Assembly: GCF_040024445.1 (NCBI RefSeq)
Contig: NZ_CP157276.1
Coordinates: forward strand, 3,472,001 to 3,536,000
Length of the DNA stretch: 64,000 nucleotides
Source of the DNA: Prescottella soli
Lineage (GTDB): Bacteria > Actinomycetota > Actinomycetes > Mycobacteriales > Mycobacteriaceae
Direction of reading: 5' to 3'
Shown here: in pieces, positions 1 through 32,547 of the stretch
Layout of the letters: each line of letters starts with the position of its first letter
How positions within the stretch are numbered: the first letter of the stretch is position 1
Translations under genes and position numbers: made by a program
The notes under the pieces: model-generated
What the model saw: the letters and a program-made list of their open reading frames with translations, nothing else
Databases searched by the model: none
What the model was told of the DNA's origin: nothing

Positions 1-960
1 CGACGGTCCGCGCACTCGAGCGGTCGGAGGGGGCGGAGTCGACCGGGGTGTCGGCCGCCGTGCGGATCGTCGCCGCGTTCGCGTGCTACCTGAGTCGGAT
101 GACGGGGCGGCGGGACGTGCTCGTGAACATCCCGGTCTCGGCCCGCACCACTGCGCTGCTTCGGCGGTCCGGTGGAATGACCGTCAACCTCCTGCCGCTG
201 CCGGTGGAGATCGCCGGTGACGACACCGTGGCGTCGCTCTCGAATCGGATCCAGCTCGAACTCGTTGCGGCGCTGCGACATCAGCGCTGCAACCGGGCCG
301 ACATCCTGCGTGACCTCGGTAGGGATCCGCCGGCGCCGATCGTGAACGTGATGTTCTTCCACCCGGAGATCGTGATGGGCGACCTCCGCACCGAGTTCCA
401 CATCCTCACCTCCGGTCCGGTCGACGACCTGCTGGTCAACGTCTACCAATCCGGAACGCCCGTACGGACGTTCGTCGACTTCCGGGCGAACCCGAACCGG
501 TACGGTGCGGGCGAGCAGCGGACCTACCATCGGCTGTTCGTGGACCTGGTCGAGGAGTTCGTGGCCGCCGATCCGCAGACGCCCCTCGGCGAACTACGCG
601 CGGCTGCATCGCCACCGTTCTCACACCCGGCCACGCGGACGCCCGCGCCCGCCGAGACCGGGGAGGCCGACGACTCCGATGCCGCCGCAGCACTGACTGA
701 GTCGGAGGCGGAGATCGAGCGGGCGATCGCCGACACGTTCGCGGCCGTGCTCGCCACCGGGCGGCCCGTCGGCCCCGAGGACAGCTTCTTCGACCTGGGC
801 GGCGACTCGCTGGTGGCGACGAAGGTGGTCGCCCGCCTGAACGCGACGCTCCGCGCGGCGCTGACCGTCCGCGACCTGTTCGAGAGGCCCACGGTGCGGC
901 GACTGGCGGGATTCGTCGAGTCGGCGCTCGGCGAGGACGGGTCGTGGGCGAGCGGGGTCG
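1..960 (+). other. NRPS module 0: C-terminal part of a condensation domain followed directly by a PCP
   Basis: Up to about 600 the protein reads as the C-terminal lobe of a condensation domain (YLSRMTG, NIPVSAR, then [10 protein letters not shown]). This resembles starter-type C domains more than the elongating C domains further on, which read GMFVNTL. A PCP follows at about 700-930, with GGDSL encoded near 801. No adenylation domain lies between them, so this carrier must be loaded by an A domain elsewhere, or the C-PCP pair is a transfer or starter unit. Confidence 0.8.
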
Positions 961-3900
961 CTCCGTCCGCGCCGACTCGCCGCGACCGGCCCGACCGGCT
1001 GCCGTTGTCGCCGGCGCAGCAGCGCATGTGGTTCGTCGACCAGCTCGACACGGCGTCCCCGGTGTACAACATCCCCTTCGCGGTGACCCTGACCGGAGAC
1101 CTCGACACCGACGCGCTCCGCGCGGCTCTCGCCGACGTCGTCGAGCGGCACGAGACGCTGCGGACGGTGTTCCCGTCGGATGCGCTCGGGCCGCACCAGG
1201 TTGTCGTCGATGCCCGGGACGCCGTGCCGGATCTTCGGCCCGTCGAGATCGACCGGGGGGACCTGTGGGACGCGGTGCTCGCCGAGGCCGCAGTGGGGTT
1301 CGACGTGAGCGCGCAGCTTCCGCTGCGCACCAGACTCTTTCGGACCGCACCCGACGAGCACGTGCTGGCCGTCGTCGCGCATCACATCGCTGCGGACGGG
1401 CAGTCGATGGTGCCGCTCGCGCGCGACGTCATGGTGGCGTACGCCGCGCGCCATGAGGGGCAGGCGCCGCGATGGGATCCGCTGCCGCTGCAGTACGCCG
1501 ACTACACGCTGTGGCAGCGGGACCTGCTCGGCGACCCGGCCGACACCGATTCGGTGTCCGCCCGTGGGCTGCGGTACTGGACAGCGCAACTGGCCGACCT
1601 ACCTCCGGTCATCTCGCTGCCGCTCGACCGCCCTCGCCCGCCCCTGATGTCGCCCGCCGGTGACACGGTCCCGTTCGTGATCGGCCCCGACGTCCACCGC
1701 AGCCTGGTCGATCTCGCCCGGACCCGCGACTGCACGTTGTTCATGGTGCTGCACACCGCATTCGCCGTGCTGCTCGCGCGACTCGGCGCCGGTCGCGACG
1801 TCGCGATCGGCACCCCGGTCGTCGGACGTGCCGCGCCCGAACTCGACGACCTGGTGGGGATGTTCGTCAACACCCTCGTCCTGCGCACCGACGTCGATCC
1901 CGGGGCGTCGTTCGTCGACGTGCTCGCCCACGTGCGCGAGACGGATCTGCAGGCGCTCGCCAACACCGAGCTGCCGTTCGAACGCCTCGTCGAGGCGTTC
2001 GCCACCGAACGCTCGCCCGCGCACGCCCCGCTCGTCCAGGTGCTCCTCGAGCTGCAGAACACCGAAACCACGTCGGTGGAACTTCCCGGCCTGGACGCCG
2101 AAGTGACCGAGGTGGATTCGCCCGTCGTCAAGTTCGAGATGCAGTTAAGTGTCCGCGAGCGCGTCGATCCGTCGGGCGAGCCTGCCGGTCTGTCGGCGGC
2201 CGTGCACTTCGCCACCGACCTGTTCGACCGCGACAGCGTCGTCCGGTTCGTCGAGCGGTTCTCCCGCATCCTGACAACGGTCGCGGCGAACGGTGATGCC
2301 GTCGTCGGCGACATCCGGGTCACCGACGACACGGAGCGCGCCCTGTCTGCGGCGCACGCCGACCGGGTGGGTGTCCCCGCGACGCTGCCGGACCGGCTGG
2401 CGCGGGTGTCGGCGCAGCGCCCGGACGCGATCGCGGTGGTCGCCGGGGTGGATCGGATGACGTATCGGACTCTCGCCGAACGGTCGAACCGGCTGTCGCG
2501 GTGGATGATCGATCGCGGAATCGGACCTGAGCGCCGCGTGGCGGTCGCAATGACACGGTCCGTGGATCTGCCGGTCGTGCTCGCAGCGGTGGTCGGCGCC
2601 GGCGCCGCGTACGTTCCGGTGGACGTGGACTACCCCGACGAGCGGATCTCGTTCGTGCTCGCTGATTCGTCGCCCGCGTGCGTGCTCGCCGACGCGGCAG
2701 GCGCGCGGCGGTTGTCGTCGGCGGCGCTCGAGATTCCGGTGGTGGATCTCGACGATCCGGCCGTCGCTGCCGACATCGCGTCGCGGTCACCCGATGCGGT
2801 TACCGACGCCGATCGTGCACCGCTGCAGCCCGATTCGATCACCTACGTGATCTACACGTCCGGTTCGACCGGGCGGCCGAAGGGTGTGGCGGTGCCGCAT
2901 CGGAGCGTCGTGACGTTGCTGGACCGTACGCTGCCGCTGTTCGGGTTCGATGCCTCGGACGTGTGGACGATGTTCCACTCGTACGCCTTCGACTTCGCGG
3001 TGTGGGAGCTGTGGGGTGGCCTGCTGCACGGTGGCACCGTCGTGCTCGTCGACCACGACACCGCACGATCTCCCCGGGACTTCCTGCAGCTCTTGCGCCG
3101 AGAGCGGGTGACCGTCCTCGACCAGACGCCGAGTGCGTTCCGGCAGCTGGCGGAGGCCGATCGGCAGTTCGCGGACGATGCCGCCGGGGACAAGCTCCCA
3201 GCGCTGCGGCATGTCGTCTTCGGTGGTGAGGTACTGGACCCGGCGAATCTGTCCGGGTGGTTCGAGCGGCACCCGGCGTCGTCTCCACGCATGACGAACA
3301 TGTACGGGATCACCGAGACTTGCGTCCACGTCACCCACGATCCGCTGGACCCCGAGGCGATCACGGGTGCCCCGGTCGGGTCGATCGGCACCCCCGTCCC
3401 GGGCCTGGCGGTGCGGGTCCTCGATTTGCGGCTGCACCCCGTGCCGCCCGGAGTGACGGGGGAGCTGTACGTCTCCGGTGCGCAGTTGTCGCGCGGGTAC
3501 CTCGACCGCCCCGGGCTCACTTCCGCCCGTTTCGTGGCCGACCCCTTCGACCCCGGCGGTCGCATGTACCGCACCGGAGACCTGGGCACATGGACGTCGG
3601 ACGGTACCCTCCGCTTCGCCGGGCGATCCGACCTCCAGGTGCAGATACGCGGATACCGGGTGGAACTGGGGGAGGTGGAGTCCGCGCTCACCGCGGCGCC
3701 GGGGGTGGCATCCGCCGTCGCGATCGCCGCCGAGGGCCCGGTCGGTACCCGGATCCTCGGCTACGTGGTGCCCGAATCCCCATCGGTCGATCCGGATGCC
3801 GTAAGAGATGCTGTGGCGCAACTGCTTCCGAGCTACATGGTGCCGTCGGCGGTCGTCGTCCTCGACCGGATGCCGACGACGGTCCACGGCAAACTCGACC

Positions 3901-6900
3901 GCGCCGCGCTACCGCCACCGGACGCGGAGGAGCGGCCGCGGGGCGCACCGGGAAACCCGATCGAGGAGGCGGTGGCCGCCACGGTCGGGGAGTTGCTGGG
4001 CCTCGACCACGTCGGCACCTCCGACGACTTCTTCGCGCTCGGCGGCAACTCGCTGGTCGCGGCGCAGCTGGCGGCGAGGATCGGCGAGGTGCTCGGCGTC
4101 GGGCTCGGCGTCCGGGACGTCTTCGACGAGCCCACCGTGGAGGGCCTCGCCCGTCGCGCCACCGCGAGCGGCGAAGCCGCGCGGCCCCCACTGGTCGCAC
4201 GGCGACGGCCGGAACGCATTCCGCTCTCGCCGTCGCAGCAACGCATCTGGTTCATCAACCAGTTCGACACCACCTCACCCACATACAACATCTCCTTGTC
4301 GGTCCGGCTGTCCGGTCGACTCGACGAGGACGCACTGCGCGCCGCACTCGCGGACGTCGTCGACCGGCACGAGTCCCTCCGCACGATCTATCCCCTCGAC
4401 GATGCGGGTCCGCGACAGGAGGTGCTGCCGGCCGGGCGGGAGGGCGCGGTCCTCGACGTCGTCGATGTCGAGGCCGAGTCCGAACTGCTGCCCCGGATGC
4501 GGGCCGTGATGGCCGGGGGATTCGACGTGACGGAACGGGTCCCGCTTCGGGCCTGCCTGTTCCGCCTCGGTGACGGCGAGCACGTCCTCACGGTGGTCCT
4601 CCACCACATCCTCGCGGACGGGTTCTCCCTCACCCCGCTGGCGCGCGACTTCGCCGCGGCGTACGTGGCGCGCCTCGGTGGTGCGCCCCCGGTGTGGCGG
4701 GCGCTCGACGTCCAGTACGCGGATTACGCGCTGTGGCAGCGCGACTGGCTCGGCGACACCGCGGATCCGGACGCGCCGTCGGCGCGGCAGCTGGCCTATT
4801 GGGCCGACACCCTGGCCGGGCTGCCGGAGGTGCTCGACTTGCCGACGGACCAGCCACGCCCGGACGTGCGCTCGCAGCGCGGCGGGCGCGTCGAGTTCGA
4901 GGTTCCGGCGGAGTTGCACGAGCGCCTAGTCCGCCTCGCTCGTGAGCGCGGCGCGAGCGTGTTCATGGTTGTGCACGCGGCGCTCGCGGTGCTGCTGGCC
5001 CGGCTCAGCGGAAGCGACGACATCGCGATCGGCACCCCGATCGCGGGCCGCGGCTCGGCGACGCTCGACGAGATGGTCGGCATGTTCGTCAACACGCTCG
5101 TGCTGCGCTGCGACGTCGGGGGGTGCTCGTTCGCGGGTCTGCTGGACCGGGTCCGCGACACCGATCTCGGTGCCTTCATGCACGCCGACGTTCCCTTCGA
5201 GCGGGTCGTGGAGGCCGTGGATCCGCCACGGTCGACGACGCATTCGCCGCTGTTCCAGGTGATGCTCGAGTTCCGCACGATCACCAGCCCCGCTCTCGAC
5301 CTTCCCGGCCTGCGGGTGCAGCCGTTCGAGCGGACCGACGAGGTGGCCGCCTTCGACCTGCAGCTCAATGTGGGCGAGGAGTTCGACGACGACGGCTCGG
5401 CCCAGGGGATGTCCGGCGGGCTGGTCTTCGCGACCGACCTGTTCGACGCGGCGACCGTCAGGCGGTTCGCCCGACGCTTCGTCCGGATCCTGCGGGCGGT
5501 GTCCTCGTCACCGGACGCCCTAGTCGCCGACATCGATGTCCTGGATCCGGAGGAGCGGCAGGCCCTGGTGCCCGTCCACGGCGCCGCGGGGACGGCACCA
5601 CGCGCCCTGGCGGACCTGCTGGTCGCTGCCGCCAACCGCGACCCGTTGCACCCCGCAATCCGCTACGACGGCTCCGACGTCACCTACGGCGAACTCGACC
5701 GGACATCGAACGTGCTGGCCCGCAGGATGATCGGCGCGGGCGTCGGACCCGGTGCGGTGGTGGCGCTGGGCATGGGGCGGTGCCCCGAGTTCCTCACCGG
5801 ACTGTGGGCGGTCGCGAAGACCGGTGCGGCGTTCGTGCCCGTGGATCCGGCGCACCCGCCCGACCGGATCGGGTTGATGCTCGCCGACTCCGGCGCCTCG
5901 CTGGGACTCACGGTCGAGGCATCACGCGGCTCGTTCCCCGACGGTCTTCCGTGGTGGGTGCTCGACGAGAACCCGTCCGCCGCCGGACCGGACGACCGCC
6001 CGATCCGGGACGGCGAACGGATCGCGCCGCTGAACCTGGACCACATTGCCTATCTCATCTACACGTCGGGTTCCACCGGAATCCCGAAGGGTGTCGCCGT
6101 CACACATCGCGGGCTCGCCTCGTTCACGGCCCTGCTCCACGACCGGTGCCGGACCACCCCGGACTCCCGGGTCCTCCAACTCGCGTCACCGAGTTTCGAC
6201 GCGTCGATCCTCGAACTGGTGCTGGCGTTCGGGGCGGGCGCGACGACGGTGATCGCGCCCGCTCCCGTCTACGGCGGCGAGGAACTACGCGAGCTGCTGA
6301 CATCCGAGCGGGTGACACACGCGTTCGTGACGCCGACCGCGTTGTCCGCCACCGACCCCGGCGGCCTCGATCACCTCGCGTGCGTGCTGACCGGCGGTGA
6401 GGCGTGCCCGTCGGACGTCGTCGAACGGTGGGCGTCCGACCGGACGATGCTCGACGCGTACGGCCCGACCGAGACGACCGTCGTCGGGACCTTGAGTGCG
6501 CCGCTGACACCAGGGGCCGCCGTGACGATCGGCGGACCGACTCCCGGATTTCATGCGCTGGTGCTCGATTCGCGACTGCATCCCGTCCCGGTCGGCACCC
6601 CGGGAGAGCTCTATCTCGCCGGACCGGCCCTCGCCCGCGGCTACCATCGGCGCCCGCCGCTCACCGCGTCCCGGTTCGTCGCCGACCCGAGCGGGACACC
6701 GGGCGAACGCATGTACCGCACCGGTGACCGGGTGCGGTGGACCGCCGCCGGGACACTCGAGTACGTCGGCCGCGTCGATCGGCAGATCAAGCTCCACGGG
6801 TACCGGATCGAACTCGGCGAGATCGAGGCGGTGCTGGCACAGCATCCCGACGTCGGCCAGGCCGCGGCCGACATCCGGCGCGTGGGCCGGATCGGGGAAC

Positions 6901-12900: not shown

Positions 12901-15900
12901 AGCGGGTCCGCGGCGTCGACGTCGACGCGTTCGCGCACGCGGACCTGCCGTTCGAGCGACTGATCGTCCGCTCCGGCGCCGCACGCAACACGTCCTACGC
13001 CCCGCTGTTCCAGGTGCTGCTCGAGTTCCGGAACGTCGACCGGCCCCGTGTGGAGCTACCGGGACTCACGGTCGAATCCGTCGACGTCGACACCGGGGAG
13101 GCGAAGTTCGACCTGCAGATCGGGATCGGCGAGCACGTCGACGAGGCCGGCGCCCCGGACGGGCTGTCCGGCGAAATCGTCTTCGCGACGGACGTGTTCG
13201 ACGACACCACCGTCACCGGTCTGGCCGCGATGCTGCCCCGGCTGCTCGCGACCGTCGCGTCCGATCCGTCGGTTCCGGTCGGCGACATCGAGCTGACCGA
13301 GGGATGGGTGCCGGCCGCGGAGCCCACCGCCGCCCGAGGCACCCTGGCCGAGATGTTCGCATCGGCGGCGGCCTCGACACCGGAGAGCGAGGCCGTCGTC
13401 GGCGGCGACGCGCGGCTCACCTACCGCGACCTCGACATGCGGTCGAACCGGTTGGCGCGCTGGCTGATCGAGCGAGGCATCGGTCCCGAATCGGTGGTGG
13501 CCGTCGCGATGGAGCGGTCCGTGGACCTGGTGACAGCCCTGGTCGCGGTCGTCCGGGCGGGCGCGGCGTACCTGCCCGTGGACCCCGGTTATCCCGTCGA
13601 ACGCATCGGATTCGTCCTCACGGACGCGCGGGCGGTGTGCGTCCTGACCGACGACGTCTCGGCGGGGCGGGTGGCCGATGCCGCCGGGGACGTGCCGGTC
13701 GTCCGACTCGACGCACCGGACACCCGGGATCGGATCGGCAGCCGCCCGGCGGGCCCCGTCGACGACCGCGAGCGCACCAGTCCGCTGCGCGCCGACTCAC
13801 CGGCGTACGTCATCTACACCTCCGGCTCGACCGGGCGGCCCAAGGGTGTCGTCGTCACACACCGCAACGTCGTCACGCTGCTCTCCGGCGCCCGCGACGT
13901 CCTCGGCTTCGACCGCAGCGACGTGTGGACGATGTTCCACTCCTACGCCTTCGACTTCGCGGTCTGGGAACTGTGGGGCGCCATCGCATTCGGCGGACGC
14001 GTCGTCGTCGTCGACCGCGACACCGCGCGGTCGCCGGACGACATGCTGGAGTTGCTGTGCGCCGAGTCGGTGACCCTGCTCAGCCAGACCCCGTCGGCGT
14101 TCTACCAACTGGCCCGCGCCGACGCCGGCACCGAACGCGATCTCGCGCTGCGCCGCGTGGTGTTCGGCGGCGAGGCACTCGACGCGACGCGGCTGGGCGA
14201 CTGGGTGGGTCGCCGCGGCGACGACCGACCCGAGCTGATCAACATGTTCGGGATCACCGAGACGTGCGTCCACGTGACCTGGCACCGGGTCGCCGCGGGG
14301 GAGGTCCGCGCCGCGGGCTCCGCCGGTTCGGTGATCGGTGCCGGCCTTCCCGGGATCGGACTGCGGGTCCTCGACGACCGACTGCACCCGGTGCCGGTGG
14401 GCATCGTCGGCGAGCTGTACGTGGCGGGTCCGCAGGTGGCGCGAGGCTACCGGCACCGTCCGGACCTGACCGCATCGCGGTTCGTGGCCGACCCGTTCGC
14501 GACCGCGCAGCGGATGTACCGCTCGGGCGACCGGGTCCGACGGACCGCGGACGGCGACCTCGAATACCTGGGGCGCAGCGACTTTCAGGTGCAGGTGCGG
14601 GGCTTCCGGGTGGAGCCGGGGGAGGTGGAGTCCGTACTGGTCTCGGTGCCGGGCATCGTGTCAGCGGTGATCCTGGCCCGGGACGAGTCCGCGGGCTCGT
14701 CCCGGCTGCTCGGGTACGTCGTCCCGGAGACGGGGGCGACGGTCACGGCCGAAACGGTGGTCGAGGCTGTCGCGCAGCGGTTGCCGCCGTACATGGTGCC
14801 GTCCGTGGTGACGGTGCTCGCGGAGTTCCCGCTGACGCCGAACGGCAAGATCGACCGCGGCGCGCTGCCGGACCCACGGGTCCGCGGTGGGCAGGGCCGC
14901 CCGCCCGCCACGGAAGTGGAGCGCATCCTCGCCGGGCTGTTCGCCGACGTGCTCGGCGCCCCGACCGTGGGGGTCGACGACTCGTTCTTCGGGCTCGGCG
15001 GCGATTCGATCATGTCCATCCAGCTGGTGTCACGCGCGAGGACCGCCGGGGTGGCGATCACGCCGCGGGACGTGTTCGAGTGCCGCACCGTCGCTCGACT
15101 CGCCGACGTGGCCGAACGGGTCGACGGGCACGGCGTCGAACCGCTGCCGGAACTGCCCGGCGGCGGCGTCGGTGACGTCGTGGCGACCCCTATCGTCTGC
15201 TGGCTCGCGGAGCGCTCCGGCGACTTCGGCCGGTACTCGCAGTCCGTGCTGCTGGACGTCCCGCCCGACCTCGGCCCCGATGCGCTGGCCGCGGGTGTCG
15301 GTGCGGTGCTCGACCGGCACGACATGTTGCGGGCGCTGTTGCGGCGCGACACGCGCTCCCGCACCGGATGGCGGGTGACGGTGCGGCCGCCCGGTGCGGT
15401 GGACGCCGAGTCCGTCACGCGGTCGGTCCCGGTCGAGGCGGTGCACGGCACGGACTTCACCGGGCCGGCGCGGCGTGAGCTGGACGCGGCTGCCGACCGA
15501 TTGGATCCGTTCTCCGGCAGCATGATCCAGTTCGTACGGTTCACCGCACCCGACGGCGTGCGGCTGCTCGCGGTCGCACACCACCTGGCGATCGACGGGG
15601 TGTCGTGGCGGATCCTCCTCGCGGACCTGGCGGTCGCGTGCACCCGGGCCGGCGCCGGAGAGGATCCGGCGCTCGCACCCGTCGGCACGTCGATGCGGAC
15701 GTGGGCGGACGGACTTGCGGCCGCCGCACGGAACCGGGGCGGCGAATTCGAGCTGTGGCGGTCCATGACCGAACCGGTGGGGCCGTGTCTCGGTGCACGA
15801 GAACTGGATCCGACCGTCGACGTCGGCACCACCACCGACCGGATCGAGGTCGACCTGTCGGCGGAGACCACCCGGGGGCTCATGACGACCGTGCCACGTG

Positions 15901-18900
15901 TCTTTCACGGCTCCGTCGATGACGGCCTGCTGAGCGCGCTCGCTCTCGCGGTGGTGCGGTGGCGCCGGGAACGCGGGATCCACGTCGACGCGATGTCGGT
16001 CGCGCTCGAGGGGCACGGACGCGAGGACCAGGTGCTGCCGGGAGCCGACCTGTCCCGGACCGTCGGATGGTTCACGTCGCTGTATCCCGTGCGGTTCGAC
16101 CTGTCCGGCATCGACGTCGATGGTGCGATGTCCGCCGACACGCCCGCGGGCGCCGTGGTGAAGGCCGTCAAGGAGACGATGCGCTCGATCCCCGACCACG
16201 GCATCGGGTTCGGCCTGCTCCGTTACCTGAACGACGACACCCGGCCCGAGCTCTCCGCGCGGGGGATGCCGGAGATCAGCTTCAACTACCTCGGCCGGTT
16301 CGATGCCGGTACCGGCGGAACGTGGCTTCCCGTGGACGATTCCGAGCTGCGCGGAGTGCTCGCACCGGACCTGTCGGCGACCGCGGTGATCGAGGTCAAC
16401 GCTGCCACGGTCCCCGGGCCGGACGGCCCGCGGATCACCGCGACGTGGGACTGCCCGCGCGGGATCCTCAGCCCAGGTGAGGTCGATCAGCTGGCGCACT
16501 GGTGGATTCGCGCCGCCGAGGCAATCGTCGAACACGCGCGCACCCCGGGTGCGGGCGGGCTGACGCCGTCGGATCTGGATCTTGTCGCGATGGAACAGGC
16601 GGCGATCGAGCGCCTGGAACACCGGTACCCCGAATTGTCGGACGTGTGGCCGCTGTCGCCGATGCAGCGCGGCATGCTGTTCCACGCGGAACTGTCGGCG
16701 GCCGAGGAGGGCGCCGCCGACGCCTACCTGGTGCAGTTGATCCTCACGCTCGACGGCGCCGCGGACGTGCCTCGATTGCGCCGCGCGGCAGCCACACTGC
16801 TCGACCGTCACCCGAACCTGCGGTCGGTATTCGTCCGCGAACCCGGGGGTGACGTCGTGCAGGTGGTGCCAGGTGTGGCCGACGTGCCGTGCACCGAGAT
16901 CGACCTCGCCGGGCTCGGCGAGGCCGATTCGACCGAGCGGTTCACCGAAGTGCTCGACGCCGATCGCGCGACACCCTTCGACGTCCGGCGCGCTCCGCTG
17001 GTGCGAATCATGCTGGTGCACATGCCCGGCGGCATCGAACGCCTCGTGATCACCAATCATCACGTGTTGTTCGACGGGTGGTCGACGCCGCTGCTGCTCG
17101 CGGAACTGTTCACGCTGTATGCCGCCGACGGCGACCCGTCCGCGCTGCCGCCCCCGGCCCCGTATCGCCGCTACCTGCAGTGGCTCACCGCGCGAGACCA
17201 GGCGACCGCGTTGCAGGCCTGGACGGACGCGCTGGCCGGCGTCGAGGACCCCACGCTCCTCACGACCGAGTCGGCGACGACGGACCGGTACACCGAGTCC
17301 CGCGATCTGACCTACCGACTCGACGCCACGACGACCGACCGGTTGCGCGACGTCGCCCGGGACCGGGGAGTCACGTTGAGCACCGTCGTGCAGGCCGCCT
17401 GGGGAATCGTGCTCGGCTTGTTGACGGGTCGCGACGACGTCGTGTTCGGGACGACCGTGTCCGGGCGCCCGCCGGACCTGCCGGGCGTCGAGACGGCCGT
17501 CGGCCTGTTCATCAACACCGTGCCGGTACGGATTCGCCTGAACCCGTACGAGAGCCTCGGCGAACTGCTCGACCGCACCCAGGCCGAGCAGTCGGCACTG
17601 CTCGACCACCACCACGTGGGCCTCGTAGACATCCAGCGGGCCGCCGGCCCGGGCGCGGCGTTCGACACGCTGACCGTGTTCGAGTCGTACCCGGTCCGCG
17701 GCGACGGCGGCGCCGGCAGGGAGGTGGGCGGACTCCGGATCGTCGGCGTCGAGGCCCGCGACTCCGCGCACTACCCGCTCAGTGTCGTCGCGTCCGCGCC
17801 CGACCGGCTGCGGGTGACGGTGAAGTTCCGCCCGGACCTGCTCGAGGAGGGGCGCGCGGCGGGCATCGCCGAACGCCTCCTGCGGGCCCTTCGGGCCCTC
17901 GCGGGCGAACCCGGGCGCCGTCTCGCCGCCCTGGACCTTCTCACCGACGTCGAGTGGCACGAATTCGTCCCGGTGGGTGCGGGTCCCGGGTCGTCGCCGC
18001 GCACACTCGCCGCGATCCTCGACACCGCCGCCGCATGGGACCCCGAGGCCCTCGCGCTCGTCGGCGACGGCCGTGAGGTGACCTACGGGGACCTCGACGC
18101 CAGGGCCAACCGGCTGGCCCGGCACCTAGCGGATCGGGGAATCGGCCCCGAATCGCTCGTGGTACTGGGGATTCCGCGATCGATCGAGTCCGTCCTCGCC
18201 GTGTGGGCGGTGGCCCGGACCGGGGCTGCGTTCGTTCCGGTCGACCCGGACTACCCACCCGAGCGGGTCGCGAACATGCTGGCGGATTGCGGCGCCGAGA
18301 TCGGCGTGACCACAAGCGAGTTCCGATCCCAATTCCCGGACTCGGTGCACTGGCTCGAGCTCGACGACCCGGACGTCGTGCGCGCGTGCGCGAGGCGGCC
18401 GTCCGGTCCGGTCACCGACAGCGACCGTACGGCGCCGCTCCGCATCGATCACCCCGCATACCTGATCTACACGTCAGGTTCCACGGGACGCCCCAAGGCG
18501 GTCACCATCACCCAACGTGGTCTCGCCAACTACGCGGACGCCCAGCGGGCACACAGCGGTGTCACGGCGGACGCACGCACCCTGCACTTCTCGTCCCCCA
18601 GCTTCGACGTCTCGCTCCTCGAGTACCTGCTGTGCTTCGCGGCCGGGGCGACGATGGTGATCGTTCCGCGCACCGTCTACGGCGGCACCGAACTGACCGC
18701 GGTGCTGCGGAAGCAGCGGGTCACCCACGCGTTCATCACCCCGGCCGCCATCGCGTCGGTCGATCCGTCGGGGCTCGACGACCTCTCGTGCGTCCTCGTC
18801 GGCGGCGAGTCGTGGCAACGCGAGCTCGTGACCGACTGGCTGCCGCAGTGCCGCGTCCTGAACGTGTACGGGCCCACCGAGACGACCATCGTCGTCAATA

Positions 18901-21900
18901 TCGAGGAGTACAGCGGGCAGCCGCGTCTGACGATGGGCGCGCCGATCCCGGGTGTCGCCGAGTTGGTGTTGGACGGGCGCCTGCAGCCGGTGCCGACCGG
19001 GGTCGAGGGCGACGTGTACATCGCGGGTCCGGGACTCGCCCGCGGCTACCACCGGCGTCCGGCGTTGACCGCTGGGCGCTTCGTCGCGAACCCGTTCGGC
19101 GCGCCCGGCGAACGCATGTACCGCACCGGTGACGTCGGTGCCTGGACCCCGGACGGCAAGCTCGAGTACCGGGGCCGCAGCGACTTCCAGGTCAAGGTCC
19201 GCGGCTTCCGCATCGAACTCGGAGAGATCGACGCGGTGCTCAGCGCGCACCCCGACGTGCGTTTCGCCGTGACGCTGGGTCGTCGGGGTCCCAGTGGCGA
19301 CACGGTGCTCGTCAGCTACGTCGCCGCGACCCCGGGCCGGGACATCACCGTCGACGGCCTGCGCGCGCGGCTCGCGGAACTCCTCCCCGAGTACATGGTT
19401 CCCGCGGCCGTCGAGGTCCTCGAGACCATACCGCTGACACCGGTTGGCAAGCTCGATCGTCGGGCGCTTCCCGAGCCTGAATTCGGCACTGCGGCACCGG
19501 TGTTCCGGGCGCCGACGAACCCGGTGGAAGAAGCCGTGACGGAGGTCTTCGCCGAGGTCCTCGGCGCCGACCGGGTCGGCACCGACGACAGCTTCTTCGA
19601 CCTGGGCGGCAACTCGCTGTCCGCGACACGCGCCGTCGCCCGTCTGGGCGAGTCCCTCGGCATCGATCTCGGTGTGCGGGCGCTGTTCGAGGCGCCCACG
19701 GCCGCCGCACTGGCCGAACGGATCGAGCACGAGGGCACCGGCCCGTCCGGACGGCCCGTCCTCGAGCCGACCGAACGCCCGCCACGGGTGCCGCTGTCCG
19801 CGGCACAGCAACGGATGTGGTTCATCAACCAGTTCGACCCGTCGTCGCCCGCCTACAACGTGCCGATCGCGGTCCGGCTGCGGGGAACCTTGGACACCGC
19901 GGCCCTGAGTGCCGCGGTGTACGACATAGTGTCCCGGCACGAGGCGTTGCGCACCGTCTTCCCGATCGACGGCGGTGGCCCGGTACAGGACGTGCGCGAG
20001 GCGGCCGACACGGGGATCGTCCTGGACCCGGTAGCCGTTGCGGCCGAATCCGATGTGTACGAGCGGGTGCGTAAGGTGACGACGGCGGGATTCGATGTGA
20101 CCGAACGCGTCCCGGTGCGGGTCGCGCTGTTCGCCCTCGGGCCGGACGATCATGTCCTGGTGCTCGTGGCCCACCACATCCTGATCGACGGATACTCGAC
20201 AGGACCGCTCGCGACGGACCTCGTGCGCGCCTACGCGGCACGGTCGGCGGGGCACCGGCCGGACTGGGCGCCGCTTCCGGTGCAGTACGCCGACTACACA
20301 CTGTGGCAACGGAATCTGCTCGGCGACGCCGACGACCCGCGATCGCTCCTCGCGCGCCAACTCGTGTACTGGACCCGGACCCTGTCCGGTGCCCCGGACC
20401 TGTTGGGGCTGCCCGCCGACCGGCCGCGTCCGATCCAGCAGTCGTTCCGCGGCGGGCGGGTCGACTTCGCGATCGACGCGGATCTGCACCGCCGGTTGCA
20501 GACGTTCGCCCGGACCCGGGGCACGAGCCTGTTCATGACCGTCCACGCGGGTCTCGCGGTCCTCCTCAGCCGACTCGGTGACACCGACGACATCGTGATC
20601 GGCACGCCGATCGCCGGGCGTGGGGAGCGGGTGCTCGACGATCTCGTCGGGATGTTCGTGGGAACGTTGGCGCTGCGCACGAGGATCGATGCACGGCTGT
20701 CGTTCTCGCAGCTTTCGGACCTCGTGCGTGACGTCGACCTGGGCGCGTTCGCGCACGCCGACGTGCCGTTCGAGCGGGTGGTCGAAGAACTCGACCCGGC
20801 GCGTTCGACGGCGTACTCGCCGCTGTTCCAGGTGGCGCTCGAGTTCCACGACGGCGCCGGCGCTCGACTCGAGCTGCCCGGGTTGACCTTCGAGGGACTG
20901 GCGCCGGGTGTCGAGGTGGTCAAGGAGGATCTCGAGTTCGTGTTGGCCGAGCAGTTCGACGAGTCCGGCGCACCCGCCGGCTTGGCGGGCGGCGTCGCCT
21001 TCGCGACCGACCTGTTCGATCCGGGTACCGTGCGCGGCTTCGCGGAACGCTTCGTCCGAATCCTCGAGTCGGCACTCGCCGATCCCGAGCGCGCCGTCGG
21101 CGATCTCGACATCCTCGCCGCCGGCGAGTTGGCCGGGCTCGCCCCCGCGCGGGGAGGGCCGGACGCGGATCCGGTCGTGCTGGCCGACCTGCTCGCGGAC
21201 GCGGCCCGCGACCCCGGCGCCGTGGCGGTCGCGCACGACGGCGCCGCGATGACGTACGGGGAACTCGACGAGCGCTCGAACAGGTTGGCGCGCTATCTGA
21301 TCGGCGCGGGAGCGGGACCCGAGTCGTTCGTGGCACTCGGCCTGTCCCGCTCGCCGGACTCGGTGCTGGCGGTGTGGTCGGTCGCGAAGACCGGCGCGGC
21401 GTTCGTGCCCGTCGACCCCGACTACCCGGCCCCGCGGATCTCGCGGATGCTGAGTGACTCGGGGGCGGCGCTCGGCGTGACGGTGCGTTCGCGCCGCGAC
21501 CGGCTGCCCGACGCGGTCGACTGGTCGGTGCTCGACGACCCTGCGACGGCCGCCGCGGTCGCCGCGACGTCGTCGGCCCCGATATCCGCGTCGGATCGTC
21601 TCCGTCCCGTGCACGCGGACCAGCCCGTCTACCTGATCTATACGTCCGGCTCGACCGGCATCCCGAAGGGCGTCGTCCTCACCCACCGCGGCCTCGCCGA
21701 CCTCGCCGTCGAGGAACGCGACCACCTGGCGGTGACCCCCGACGCCCGCACCCTGCACTTCGCGTCGCCGAGCTTCGACGCCTCGGTGTTCGAGACGGTG
21801 ATGGCGCTCAGTGCGGGCGCCACGATGGTCGTCGTCCCGACCGGCATCTACGGCGGCACAGAGCTCGGCTCGCTGCTCGAAACCGAGAGAGTGACACACG

Positions 21901-23699
21901 GATTCGTGACCCCTACCGCGCTCGCCTCGGTCGACCCGGTGGGTCAGGACTCGCTGCGCACGCTGGTCGTCGCCGGTGAGCCGTGTCCGCCGGAACTGGT
22001 GGCGCGCTGGGCGCCCGGCCGCACGATGCTCAATGCCTACGGCCCCACCGAGACGACGATCATGGCGAACATCAGCGCCCCGATGCACCCCGGCGAGCCG
22101 GTGACGTTCGGCGGCCCGATCCGCGGTACCACCGAACTCGTGCTGGACACGCGCCTGCATCCGGTGCCGCGAGGTGTGGTCGGGGAGCTGTACATCTCCG
22201 GGCCGGCGCTGGCGCGCGGGTACCACGCCCGCCCGGGACTCACCGCGTCCCGGTTCGTCGCGAACCCGTGGGGTCGTCACGGTGAACGGCTCTACCGCAC
22301 AGGCGATCTGGTGCGCTGGCGGTTCGACGGCACGCTCGAGTACATCGGCCGCAGCGACTTCCAGGTCAAGGTGCGCGGATTCCGGATCGAACCGGGGGAG
22401 ATCGACGCGGTGCTCACCGCCCAGCCGGGCGTCGGGTTCTCCGTGACCCTCGCCCGTCCGGGCCCGGCCGGCAACACGCTGCTGTGCTCGTACGTGCGCC
22501 CGGTCGAGAACACGGACGTCGATCCCGACGACCTCCGCCGCGTCGCCGCCCAGCACCTGCCCGCGTACATGGTGCCGGCCGCGGTCACTGTCCTGGACCG
22601 CATCCCGCTGACGCCGACCGGCAAGCTCGACCGCGACGCGCTGCCGGACCCGGGGTTCCTGGCCGCGTCCGCGGTGTTCCGGGAACCCGACGGCCCGGTC
22701 GAGTCGGCCGTGGTCCGGGCGTTCGCCGACGTCCTGGGCGTCGACCGGGTGGGCATGGACGACAGCTTCTTCGACCTCGGCGGCACCTCGTTGCTCGCGA
22801 CGAAGGTGGTGACGGACCTGCGTGTCCGGCTCGGTTCGACCGTTCCGTTGCAGGCACTGTTCCTCGATCCGACACCGGCCGGGCTGGCCGCACGGATCAC
22901 CGCGGTGGCGCCCGGCGGGATCGACGAGGCCCTGGCGGCCCGCATCACGCTGCGCGCGGGTGGCTCGGGACGGCCGCTGTTCTGCGTCCACCCCGGGATC
23001 GGTCTGTCGTGGGGCTACGGCGCTCTGCTGCGCCACCTGCCGACGGATCGCCCGGTGTTCGGGCTGCAGCTGCCGGCCATCGCGGGCGGACCCCGGTACG
23101 CGTCGATCGACGACCTCGCCGCCAGGTACGTCGACGAGATGGTGGCGGTCGCCCCGGACGGCCCGTACGACCTGCTCGGCTGGTCGCTCGGCGGTGTCCT
23201 CGCGCACGCGATGGGCGTCGAACTGCAGCGCCGCGGGCTCGCCGTCGCGACGCTCGCGGTCATGGACGCCTTCCCCGACGACGGCTCGGATCCCCTGCTG
23301 AGCCGCCTGGACCTGGTAGACCTGCTGCAGGGGCTCGGGCTCGACGTCGCGGCGACGCAGGACCTCACCTACGCGACCGCGGCTCGGATGTTCAACGACC
23401 ACTTCGGGATACCGGACGGCATCACCGCCGAGCACCTCGAACGCATCAGCGACGGCTACCTGAACTCCCGGCTGCTGGTACACCGGTTCGTCCCGGACGT
23501 GTTCGAGGGCGACCTGCTCGCGTTCCCCGCGGTCGGCGACCGGGACGGGGCGCGCCGGTCTCCGCAGGAATGGCGCCGGATCGTGACCGGCGGCATCGAC
23601 GAGTGTCCCGTCGACTGCGGCCACAACGACATGATCGAGCCCGAGTCGCTGGCCGTGATCGGCCCGGTGCTCGCCGCGTACCTCGAACGGGGCGGGTGA
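1..23699 (+). CDS. Non-ribosomal peptide synthetase, 3' part (six complete modules plus a partial first one, terminal thioesterase)
   Basis: The reading frame is open from base 3 of the window, so the gene starts upstream; 7898 residues are visible and end in TGA at 23697-23699. Domain order is partial C, PCP; C-A-PCP; C-A-PCP-E; C-A-PCP; C-A-PCP-E; C-A-PCP; C-A-PCP-TE. Every visible full C and E domain keeps HHxxxDG, every PCP keeps its GG(N/D/T)S phosphopantetheine site, every A domain keeps the YTSGSTG and GK(L/V/I)DR cores, and the TE has GWSLGG. It should build a peptide of at least six residues on carrier domains in the cytoplasm, with residues 2 and 4 of the visible chain made D, and release it with the TE. 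No MbtH-like gene, phosphopantetheinyl transferase or exporter is seen beside it; those may lie upstream. The product is unknown. The family call is secure; the peptide sequence is not. Confidence 0.97.
990..4185 (+). other. NRPS module 1: C(LCL)-A-PCP, predicted Thr-like
   Basis: The C domain (about 990-2330) has HHIAADG. The A domain (about 2370-3930) has [23 protein letters not shown] and [12 protein letters not shown]. Aligned by eye to GrsA this gives a pocket code of about DFWDVGMVHK, close to the threonine code DFWNIGMVHK. The PCP carries GGNSL near 4041. No epimerase follows. Confidence 0.8.
4200..8815 (+). other. NRPS module 2: C(LCL)-A-PCP-E
   Basis: The C domain (about 4205-5540) has HHILADG. 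The A domain (about 5600-7075) has [23 protein letters not shown] and [10 protein letters not shown], giving a hand-derived code of about DALFLGAVVK that I cannot assign beyond hydrophobic. The PCP reads GGDSI near 7200, the form usual before an epimerase. The E domain (about 7360-8800) has [10 protein letters not shown] and EGHGRE. Confidence 0.8.
8830..11925 (+). other. NRPS module 3: C(DCL)-A-PCP
   Basis: The C domain (about 8830-10150) opens with DVWPVSPLQ and has HHILLDGWS, the subtype that accepts a D-configured donor, as expected after an E domain. The A domain (about 10190-11680) has [23 protein letters not shown] and [10 protein letters not shown], code about DVLCVAGVLK, unassigned. 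The PCP has GGNSL near 11800. Confidence 0.8.
11955..16600 (+). other. NRPS module 4: C(LCL)-A-PCP-E, predicted Thr
   Basis: The C domain (about 11960-13300) has HHIVADG. The A domain (about 13335-14880) has [23 protein letters not shown] and [12 protein letters not shown], code about DFWSVGMVHK, a threonine-type pocket. The PCP has GGDSI. The E domain (about 15155-16590) has [10 protein letters not shown], so this residue should be released as the D (allo) form. Confidence 0.8.
16620..19735 (+). other. NRPS module 5: C(DCL)-A-PCP
   Basis: The C domain (about 16630-17950) has DVWPLSPMQ and [10 protein letters not shown]. The A domain (about 18000-19480) has [24 protein letters not shown] and [10 protein letters not shown], code about DVLFLGVIVK, unassigned. 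Its A3/A4 region departs from the siblings: RPKAV in place of RPKGV, and TQRG in place of THRG. The PCP has GGNSL. Confidence 0.78.
19760..23699 (+). other. NRPS module 6 (termination): C(LCL)-A-PCP-TE
   Basis: The C domain (about 19770-21115) has HHILIDG. The A domain (about 21170-22660) has [22 protein letters not shown] and [10 protein letters not shown], code about DAFFVAAIMK, unassigned. The PCP carries GGTSL near 22780. The type I thioesterase (about 22950-23690) has the nucleophile elbow GWSLGG and a late GHND His. Hydrolysis and cyclisation cannot be told apart from sequence alone. Confidence 0.8.
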
Positions 23700-30642: not shown

Positions 30643-31797
30643 ATGCGTGAGAAGCGCCCCATCCGCTCCATCCTGCCCCGGCGCGCCGCGGGGACCGCCG
30701 ACGATGTCGTCTCGCCGGAACACTCGATGGCTCCGCGACATCCGGGCCACGCGCCCGCGCCGCACCACAGCGCGGTGGAGTCGAGCGTGGTCAACAGTGC
30801 CGTCTACCGTGACGGTCGGCGCATCGCCTCGCCCGCCACGCTCGCCGAGGCGCTCGACAGCCTGCCGGACGCCTCGTCGATGGCGTGGATCGGTCTGTAC
30901 CGTCCCTCCGACGCCCAACTGCACGCTGCGGCAAAGCAGTTCGATCTCCACGAGCTCGCGGTCGAGGACGCGATCGTGGCGCACCAGCGCCCCAAGCTCG
31001 AGCGCTACGGCGACACCCTGTTCGTCGTGCTCCGTGCCGCGCGGTACCTCGACGAGTCGGAGACCGTCGACTTCGGCGAGCTGCACATCTTCTGCGGCCC
31101 CACATTCGTCCTCACCGTCCGGCACAGCGAGTCGCCGGACCTGTCGAACGTTCGAACGCGCATGGAGAGCGATCCCGAACTTCTCAAGCTCGGGCCCGAG
31201 GCGGTGCTCTACGCGATCCTCGACGCCGTCGTCGACGGCTACGCGCCGGTCGTCGCCGGCCTGCAGAACGACATCGACGAGATCGAGACCGAGGTGTTCA
31301 GCGGCGACCCGATGGTGTCGCGACGCATCTACGAACTCTCCCGCGAGGTCATCGAGTTCCAGCGCGCCACCAAGCCTCTGCTCGCCATGCTCCGGGCGCT
31401 GTCCGCCGGCTTCGACAAGTACAAGACCGACGAGGAACTGCAGAAGTACCTGCGCGACGTCACCGACCATGCGACCACCGTCGTCGAGCGCGTCGACGGG
31501 TTCCGGGACTTGCTCGCGAACATGCTGACGGTGAACGCGACGCTCGTGTCGCAGGCGCAGAACGAGGAGATGCGCAACCTTACGCAGGCCAGCTATGCGC
31601 AGAACGAGGAGATCAAGAAGATCTCGTCGTGGGCCGCAATCCTGTTCGCGCCCACCCTCATCGGCACCGTGTACGGCATGAACTTCGACAACATCCCGGA
31701 ACTGCACTGGGCGGGCGGCTACCCCTTCGCGCTGATCCTGATGTTCCTGACCTGCTTCAGCCTCTACACGATCTTCAAGAAGCGCGGCTGGCTGTAG
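30643..31797 (+). CDS. corA: Magnesium/cobalt transport protein CorA
   Basis: This 384-residue protein has a cytoplasmic N-terminal funnel domain and two C-terminal transmembrane segments. The pore signature YGMN is at residues 344-347, followed by a short loop, the second helix (FALILMFLTCFSLYTIF) and a basic C-terminus (KKRGWL). The length suits the CorA family, with an N-terminal extension of about 45 residues rich in Pro, His and Arg. The start codon has only a weak upstream GAAAG; ATG 30727 is an in-frame alternative. It should mediate Mg2+ influx across the plasma membrane and may be controlled by the structured leader in front of it. Confidence 0.93.
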   Translation: MREKRPIRSILPRRAAGTADDVVSPEHSMAPRHPGHAPAPHHSAVESSVVNSAVYRDGRRIASPATLAEALDSLPDASSMAWIGLYRPSDAQLHAAAKQFDLHELAVEDAIVAHQRPKLERYGDTLFVVLRAARYLDESETVDFGELHIFCGPTFVLTVRHSESPDLSNVRTRMESDPELLKLGPEAVLYAILDAVVDGYAPVVAGLQNDIDEIETEVFSGDPMVSRRIYELSREVIEFQRATKPLLAMLRALSAGFDKYKTDEELQKYLRDVTDHATTVVERVDGFRDLLANMLTVNATLVSQAQNEEMRNLTQASYAQNEEIKKISSWAAILFAPTLIGTVYGMNFDNIPELHWAGGYPFALILMFLTCFSLYTIFKKRGWL

Positions 31798-31825
31798 CGG
31801 GTGGCACCGGAACCGATCGGCCGGT

Positions 31826-31831
31826 TACAGT
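31826..31831 (+). promoter_or_regulatory. -10 box for leaderless transcript of the Cys leader peptide
   Basis: TACAGT is followed by exactly 7 nt and then GTG 31839, so transcription should start at or next to the start codon. The spacing matches other leaderless genes in the window. Confidence 0.6.
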
Positions 31832-31838
31832 CACCACT

Positions 31839-31937
31839 GTGACCGACCCTCGCGCGATCGACTCCGGTGAGCTGCTGACGCGGCGCCGCCACGTCGATTT
31901 CGCGCTGGTGTGCACGTCCGGTTGTCCGCGGTCCTGA
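31839..31937 (+). CDS. Cys-containing leader peptide (32 residues), likely cysteine-responsive attenuator
   Basis: GTG 31839 opens 32 codons ending LLTRRRHVDFALVCTSGCPRS. The LTRRRHVD block followed by clustered Cys near the C-terminus matches the family of actinobacterial leaderless Cys-rich leader peptides (Ms4527A/Ms4533A/Ms5788A type) that regulate sulfur genes in mycobacteria. Cys codons are 25 (31911) and 29 (31923). There is no Shine-Dalgarno and the TACAGT -10 box fits leaderless translation. The last codons, CGGTCCTG (31929-31936), are the exact complement of CAGGACCG (32003-32010), which holds the presumed ribosome site of the next gene. It is probably a regulatory ORF whose peptide has no function of its own. 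Confidence 0.7.
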   Translation: MTDPRAIDSGELLTRRRHVDFALVCTSGCPRS

Positions 31938-32010
31938 TCGACCCCGCCTCGCACGACAACCACCTCGCTGCGGCGTCCTCGCGCGCCCGGCGACGCACCC
32001 GACAGGACCG
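31929..32010 (+). promoter_or_regulatory. Candidate attenuator helix sequestering the osmC ribosome site
   Basis: CGGTCCTG (31929-31936, end of the leader ORF) and CAGGACCG (32003-32010) are perfect complements over 8 bp. The 3' arm includes AGGA, the only Shine-Dalgarno-like sequence before the osmC-like ATG at 32020. A ribosome paused on Cys codon 29 would cover the 5' arm and free the site. Confidence 0.5.
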
Positions 32011-32019
32011 GTACCTCCC

Positions 32020-32547
32020 ATGACCACTGCAGCAGTCACGCATCTCTCCGCGATCGTCGCCGCCACCGGCGACGCCGTCTCCGAGGACGCCACCAAGGCG
32101 CACGTCGTCTTCCGCGCGTCGGCGCAGGCCCACGACGCCGTCGCCAGCACCGTCAGGCTCGGCAAGTACTCCGTCGAGGTGGACGAGCCGCCGGCCCTCG
32201 GCGGCGAGAACACCGCACCCAACCCGGTCGAGTACTACCTGGCCTCGCTGCTGTCGTGCCACGTGGTGACGTACCGGTTCTGGGCCGAGCGCCTCGGCAT
32301 CCGGGTCGACGACATCAAGGCCCGCGCCGAGGGTGACCTCGACGTCCGCGGCTTCTTCGGGTTCGACGACGCCGTCCGCCCGGGATTCGGGGAGGTCCGT
32401 GTGGTCGTGACCATCACCGGGCCGGAATCGCGCGAGCGCTACCTGGAACTGCACGCGGCGGCCGAGGCGCACTGCCCGGTGCTGGACCTGACGCGCAATC
32501 CGACGCCGGTCGTCTCGGTGCTCGAAACCGTCGAGTCGAACGGCTGA
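32020..32547 (+). CDS. OsmC-family protein
   Basis: This 175-residue cytoplasmic protein has the OsmC/Ohr fold pattern: an N-terminal strand region, GGENTAPNPVEYYLASLLSCHV with the first conserved Cys on the central helix (about residue 84), and AEAHCPVLD with the second Cys near residue 149. Two conserved Cys suggest thiol-dependent peroxide reduction or sulfur handling; the exact substrate is not clear. It sits 82 nt downstream of the Cys leader ORF, which ties its expression to cysteine supply. ATG 32020 follows AGGACC at 32005. The gene ends just before a bidirectional hairpin. Confidence 0.85.
   Translation: MTTAAVTHLSAIVAATGDAVSEDATKAHVVFRASAQAHDAVASTVRLGKYSVEVDEPPALGGENTAPNPVEYYLASLLSCHVVTYRFWAERLGIRVDDIKARAEGDLDVRGFFGFDDAVRPGFGEVRVVVTITGPESRERYLELHAAAEAHCPVLDLTRNPTPVVSVLETVESNG

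Follow-up and report, generated by a model that had tools for sequence, protein, structure and literature searches.

A probable leaderless cysteine attenuator upstream of an osmC-family gene in Prescottella soli and related actinobacteria

Introduction

Canestrari et al. 2020 (Mol Microbiol 114:93) reportedly found that a structure masking the ribosome site is blocked when ribosomes stall on the leader. Leaderless polycysteine attenuators have been reported in mycobacteria, as cited in the excerpted text of PMC9031893, PMC9094748 and PMC13236596. In Streptomyces lividans, promoters of the TAnnnT type are described and 17% of transcripts are leaderless, and among the leaders in the same source is one with a lone regulatory Trp codon (PMC8079986, in excerpt). 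Here we describe a short ORF with two separated Cys codons that lies upstream of an osmC-family gene in Prescottella soli, together with its conservation, its neighbors and its predicted pairing with the osmC Shine-Dalgarno (SD) region.

Results

The leader ORF and its locus

The window is the whole stretch of DNA that was analysed (64,000 nt of contig NZ_CP157276.1), and the genome that carries it comprises 5.48 Mb in a single contig. The locus is bounded upstream by corA and downstream by a convergent PdxR-type gene, and has the following features, numbered from the first position of the window:

31826..31831, + strand: -10 element TACAGT (TANNNT type), assigned from sequence
31839..31937, + strand: leader ORF, 32 codons, with a GTG start (the presumed transcription start) and stop codon TGA at 31935-31937
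31881..31901, + strand: conserved peptide core RRRHVDF (codons 15-21)
31911..31913, + strand: Cys25 codon TGC (TGC or TGT depending on lineage)
31923..31925, + strand: Cys29 codon TGT, the probable sensor codon
31929..31936, + strand: 5' arm CGGTCCTG, comprising the end of codon 31, codon 32 and the first two bases of the stop codon
31938..32019, + strand: C-rich spacer, 82 nt (41 C, 21 G)
32003..32010, + strand: 3' arm CAGGACCG with an SD-like AGGA (32004-32007), the exact reverse complement of the 5' arm
32020..32547, + strand: osmC-family gene, 175 aa, ATG at 32020, the presumed regulated gene

The leader ORF, which encodes (V/M)TDPRAIDSGELLTRRRHVDFALVCTSGCPRS up to its stop codon and is absent from the existing annotation, is separated from TACAGT by the 7 nt CACCACT. 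The initial annotation had placed here, from the letters alone, a 32-codon ORF ending VCTSGCPRS and beginning 7 nt after TACAGT, and all of its coordinates check; the perfect complementarity that it described between 31929-31936 and 32003-32010 is likewise exact, and includes the AGGA located 12 nt upstream of the osmC ATG. Its assignment of the downstream gene as osmC-like is borne out by a match to PF02566 (73.3 bits; gathering cut-off 27.5), and with the OsmC-related (seleno)protein family NF041052 the product scores 86.7 bits, under the cut-off of 95. A scan of 31700-32200 found no Rfam family at gathering score, and a sub-threshold viral match in that interval (22.2 bits, gathering score 55) was dismissed. 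No intrinsic terminator was found at the leader and spacer, and a generic sigma-70 scan requiring a -35 element found no promoter. Elsewhere in the window, positions 48-23696 (+ strand) form an open frame of 7883 aa, whose parts 48-6047 and 15000-23696 carry condensation, adenylation and carrier domains of the NRPS type, with a thioesterase near the end of the second of these parts.

Conservation of the leader among osmC loci

Orthologues of osmC were found in 11 of the 14 genomes of the genus, that of the window included; across the family, sampled from a larger group, 137 of 401 genomes have one. The upstream 450 nt were read at 130 of these 137 loci, seven weak or partial matches being left out, and were scanned for ORFs 12-60 codons long whose start lies 6-7 nt behind a TANNNT box, irrespective of Cys content or motif. 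Such an ORF is present at 52 of the 130 loci (again counting the window); each of the 52 carries two or more Cys within its final 14 residues, and the core RR(R)-[HTYV]-[VI]-D is common to 51. By group, the leader is found at 11/11 loci in g1 (Prescottella), 17/18 in g23, 19/19 in g6, 2/2 in g21 and 2/5 in g27. The single g13 match (1/1) is a polycysteine ORF unrelated to the osmC leader, and in the seven other groups the motif-free scan found a short ORF after TANNNT at none of 74 osmC loci. One of these 74, a g17 locus that the scan missed (L063, the same as L198), does carry a leader; it starts with ATG and has only one Cys, reading VSTSGC and so having Ser at the place of Cys25. Position, spacing and peptide are kept in five genus-level groups, plus g17 with its one Cys.

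Among the 51 leaders the -10 box is TACAGT in 27, TATTGT in 13 and another sequence in 11, and the spacer between box and start, with start sites inferred from sequence, is 7 nt in 48 leaders and 6 nt in three. The distance from the leader stop to the osmC start is 41-117 nt (47 loci at which the start codon was found). The three congeners that have no osmC also have no leader, with best matches of 21.9-22.8 bits vs 65.1-74.7 bits in the other eleven. Of the 3727 ATG or GTG within the window, only 7 follow a TANNNT box at this distance of 6-7 nt; since the leader has such a box at 51 of 130 osmC loci, it is more than a chance occurrence. Conservation of the short ORF upstream of osmC in relatives, a check named in the initial annotation, is thus seen at 51/130 loci and at all 11 in Prescottella, and the comparative evidence indicates that the leader ORF is real, conserved and functional. 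In another genus, a different Cys-rich short ORF, reading RCC...DCCRRHCCR at its end, starts 286 nt ahead of the osmC orthologue (G070:C110, L094).

Peptide sequence and Cys codons

The 51 osmC leaders were chosen by the pattern V-[TM]...[VI]-C-[TAS]-x-x-C (those of g27 by a string of their own), and not by the core. In the 44 that are non-redundant, RRR and D are invariant and their codons vary synonymously, and pN/pS over ten core codons is 0.29. Judged by this comparison, selection acts at the peptide level.

The Cys residues are arranged non-contiguously, as CTSGC in the window and as CTCGC or CTCSC in some congeners, with one to three Cys near the end of the peptide. Where the arrangement is C-x3-C, the second Cys is TGT (UGU) in 49 of 49 leaders, which stem from few lineages and are hence non-independent, and the first is mixed. 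The literal last Cys is TGT in 46 of all 51 osmC leaders, and also in 15 of the 17 leaders checked (of 26) from other actinobacterial families. In the window TGT is the minor Cys codon: the 32 genes predicted there heuristically use it for 27 of their 138 Cys. Fixation of UGU at the second Cys could serve either pairing or slow wobble decoding.

Genes that accompany the leader

In several groups, osmC is followed by metY, which encodes O-acetylhomoserine sulfhydrylase (the copy at L216 matches TIGR01326 with 591 bits). A same-strand metY lies directly after osmC at all 15 g23 leader loci whose downstream side could be read (excluding L061, cut off by its contig end, and L127, left unextended), at all four of the g6 loci that were extended (of 19), and at the one g17 locus; at the g27 leader locus L225 it is 291 nt downstream. 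It does not follow osmC at the 11 Prescottella loci, the window included, or at the two g21 loci, where osmC stands alone, and the g13 locus has no metY. Among 17 sampled loci without the leader, metY is present at three (L275-L277; g18 and g27) and absent at 14, so that outside g18 and g27 it is found at 0/14. At one Rhodococcus locus (L210) the leader precedes a metY-like ORF, and no osmC was found. The kinship to mycobacterial cysteine leaders proposed in the initial annotation finds support in the short ORF, in the Cys codons near the stop, and in the order osmC then metY in g23 and g6.

Two published observations touch on these genes. In R. qingshengii IGTS8, the excerpted text of PMC8557817 describes a MetY (peg3888; no Cys, one Met) that rises on dibenzothiophene without sulfate by log2 2.9-3.1, or about 8-fold. 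IGTS8 has two MetY (PMC9426449, in excerpt). In the R. qingshengii genome searched, neither of the two copies contains Cys and each contains 2 Met with the initiator included, so that the induced MetY could not be assigned to the one linked to the leader. An induced OsmC-like protein of R. erythropolis MI2 was not taken as the product of this gene, since its authors find no orthologue in other R. erythropolis strains (PMC5157978, as excerpted).

Related leaders occur elsewhere. In the genome of the window, one precedes a gene of the nitrite/sulfite reductase family, some of the gene assignments being under NCBIfam cut-offs, and two leaders exceed the cut-off of NF042934. A leader ending LTRRRAVDLCRLGGCCCPCC at its stop codon (L170, G000:C1:1985525-1985581, + strand) lies before a DUF4395 gene with a sulfurtransferase-like gene next in line, and one ending SRRHVDLCRTSSGMCTR (L169, G000:C1:2363964-2364011, - strand) lies before a 211-aa ORF weakly similar to NtaA/DmoA monooxygenases. 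Across the collection, a scan whose pattern contains the core, so that recurrence before other genes is not unbiased, found 56 loci, of which 30 have osmC downstream; these 30 include Pseudonocardia thermophila, where osmC is followed by metY. Downstream genes were inspected at 14 of the 26 non-rhodococcal leader loci, and comprise by profile SfnG and an MsnO8-family oxidoreductase (both over cut-off), and further an SsuD-like monooxygenase, LLM genes, FMN reductases and a transporter of the dicarboxylate/amino-acid type. At one distant leader (L227) the downstream gene resembles, by eye, a response regulator rather than a sulfur gene. Nine Saccharothrix leaders (L220, L221, L226, L228, L230, L232, L233, L235 and L236) read ELLTRRRHIDFGRR and have one Cys; because a G-rich, SD-like stretch lies directly before their start, they are apparently not leaderless. 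At L220 and L235, the two examined downstream, a transporter-like ORF follows. Judged by this genomic company, the likely signal is sulfur or cysteine status.

Predicted pairing with the osmC ribosome site

Taken alone, the 8-nt arms are marginal, with a duplex energy that gives P = 0.06 vs shuffled 5' arms. When the free RNA is folded to 15 nt inside osmC, the 5' arm is predicted to pair with the SD region with a probability of 0.85. With 40 nt of osmC included in the fold, the predicted probability that the SD core of the window RNA is unpaired is 0.06 in the free RNA and 0.57 with Cys29 in the ribosomal A site; with Cys25 in the A site the value is 0.00, and occupancy of the stop codon frees the SD about equally (0.54). 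The pattern persists when the fold extends to 15 or 80 nt inside osmC, and is absent when it ends just before the osmC ATG (0.39 to 0.44). In a local model of the window the corresponding change is from 0.01 to 0.57, and shuffled 5' arms match the window's change in 2/60 cases. The proposal of the initial annotation that a ribosome at Cys29 would sit over the 5' arm and so expose the SD is therefore reproduced in the models of the window provided that the fold takes in at least 15 nt of osmC, and fails in the fold that ends before the ATG.

The arms, whose presence in relatives the initial annotation had also named as a check, are perfect in 2 of the 11 Prescottella genomes, and a third has them with one G-U (by eye). 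In the two sister species that keep the arms (one with the G-U), the predicted SD-unpaired values are 0.44 to 0.50 and 0.49 to 0.38, and another SD stretch in the first of them changes from 0.22 to 0.38. By the local model, a rise of more than 0.1 is predicted in 1/11 Prescottella, 2/17 g23, 0/2 g27 and 15/19 g6 loci; no clear switch is predicted in the other ten Prescottella or in most of g23.

Thirteen g6 genomes, with leaders ending VCTSSCS or ICTSSCS, have a different and stronger predicted pairing, of TCCTGTTCG with CGAACAGGA at the SD. In these, codons 28-30 are frozen as TCC TGT TCG, codons 26-27 vary synonymously, and the predicted SD release is 0.24-0.51 in each. Exchange of arms among 20 representatives gave -13.8 kcal/mol for cognate vs -12.0 kcal/mol for swapped arms (permutation P 0.00085, a value inflated by relatedness), and only 6 of the 20 beat shuffled arms at the 5% level. 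Three tests of SD exposure across lineages (two on 49 leaders, one on 20 representatives) do not support a general masking mechanism. Since a switch is predicted in the window and the 13 g6 genomes, with few rises elsewhere and an inflated swap test, masking is plausible for the window genome and for a second lineage, and only conjectural as the general mode across lineages; the exact base pairing first proposed is restricted to the window genome and the species closest to it.

Discussion

Because the ORF is conserved, its peptide is under selection, a UGU codon is fixed and metY and other sulfur genes keep it company, we propose, as the likeliest reading of 31826-32020, a leaderless cysteine attenuator acting on osmC, and hold this as probable rather than certain. 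Transcription would start at the GTG of the 32-codon ORF, and ribosomes would load directly on it. When cysteinyl-tRNA is plentiful, ribosomes would reach the stop codon, after which the 3' end of the leader would pair with the osmC SD region and translation would be low; when it is scarce, a ribosome would pause with UGU codon 29 in the A site, covering the 5' arm and leaving the osmC site free. In this scheme we infer the leaderless transcription, the sensing of Cys-tRNA, the direction of the response and, where no masking helix is predicted, masking as against another form of coupling.

A leader that senses Cys-tRNA might instead act on transcription, with the position of the leader ribosome setting Rho-dependent termination in the spacer. 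The spacer is C-rich (41 C and 21 G of 82 nt) and without an intrinsic terminator, the leader is kept in most lineages without a predicted masking switch, and Rho has been proposed for mycobacterial cys leaders (PMC1262725, in excerpt). However, a ribosome paused at codon 29 would leave the spacer naked, so that starvation would favor termination by Rho, opposite to the response expected of a sulfur gene, and a fitting SD-masking helix is predicted in the window and in 13 g6 genomes; we regard this alternative as unlikely. Translational coupling or simple reinitiation at osmC by ribosomes that finish the leader, with no sensing involved, would suit the closeness of the two frames (41-117 nt at 47 loci), but 82 nt is long for reinitiation, the distance varies, and the fixed UGU, the Cys conservation and the association with sulfur genes would go unexplained, all of which makes it highly improbable. 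That the ORF is a chance frame has the least to recommend it, with a probability close to negligible: it does lie in phase inside a longer open frame (30885-31937), whereas its conservation, its spacing, the pattern of its codons and its lack in congeners that have no osmC all speak otherwise.

The core itself poses a different alternative, in which RRR-x-[VI]-D would be an arrest motif in the ribosome tunnel. The leader would then sense through its nascent peptide, with one slow UGU as a possible aid, and would not be a simple codon-run attenuator. Consistent with this are the invariance of RRR and D amid synonymous variation (pN/pS 0.29), the location of the core 8-14 residues upstream of Cys29, its recurrence before different genes in other actinobacterial orders (biased, the search pattern having contained it), the single Cys retained in L198, and the UGU fixed at the second Cys of the C-x3-C leaders. 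Cys29 is itself nearly invariant, though, which fits plain tRNA sensing, and we think the arrest reading doubtful, if less so than termination by Rho. Slightly better placed, and still tentative, is a two-part sensor, in which the invariant RRR-x-[VI]-D nascent chain would prime a pause in the tunnel and a single wobble-read UGU about nine residues on would suffice to report cysteinyl-tRNA, the same cassette serving many sulfur genes, osmC included, across actinobacterial orders.

OsmC-family genes are usually filed under peroxide or osmotic stress. If the cysteine attenuator is real, it would place an OsmC-family gene within cysteine-controlled sulfur assimilation beside metY, and would mean that cysteine leaders need no polycysteine run; under the two-part sensor, the way in which osmC is regulated would bring to light its role in sulfur metabolism. 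Why these leaders share peptide sequence beyond their Cys codons is a question raised by the fixed UGU and the Arg-rich core.

Comparison with known systems

Among the matches listed for literature on OsmC with cysteine leaders or sulfur, and on cysteine attenuation, there was no report of an osmC leader. The cys leaders of actinobacteria in a 2005 comparative study resemble the one described here in being Cys-containing leaders that have no terminators; they differ in having Cys runs near the stop and in preceding cys and cbs operons rather than osmC (PMC1262725, in its excerpted parts). The Rhodobacterales cysS leader uORFC-8-2 is also a Cys-codon leader before a cysteine-related gene, but has tandem Cys codons, mostly UGC, and an intrinsic terminator inferred by its authors (PMC8632094, as excerpted).

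Two NCBIfam leader families also stand close to it. With the Ms4527A-type polycysteine leaders (NF042936, leader_Ms4527A), the osmC leader has in common a short Cys-containing ORF that is apparently leaderless, an Arg-rich core and, in the relatives where metY follows osmC, a position before a sulfur gene. Unlike these, it has no Cys run (CTSGC, with one to three Cys near the end), its target is osmC (with metY in relatives), UGU is fixed at the second Cys and the masking helix is unconserved. With the "putative leader peptide" family NF042934 (cis_reg_atten), it shares a core of the RRRHVD type. The window leader scores 20.9 bits against NF042936 (cut-off 45) and 15.4 bits against NF042934 (cut-off 27), and because it falls under both cut-offs, its sequence marks it as a relative and variant of these families rather than a member. 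The novelty of the system most likely lies in its target, osmC, and in the use of only one to three non-contiguous Cys.
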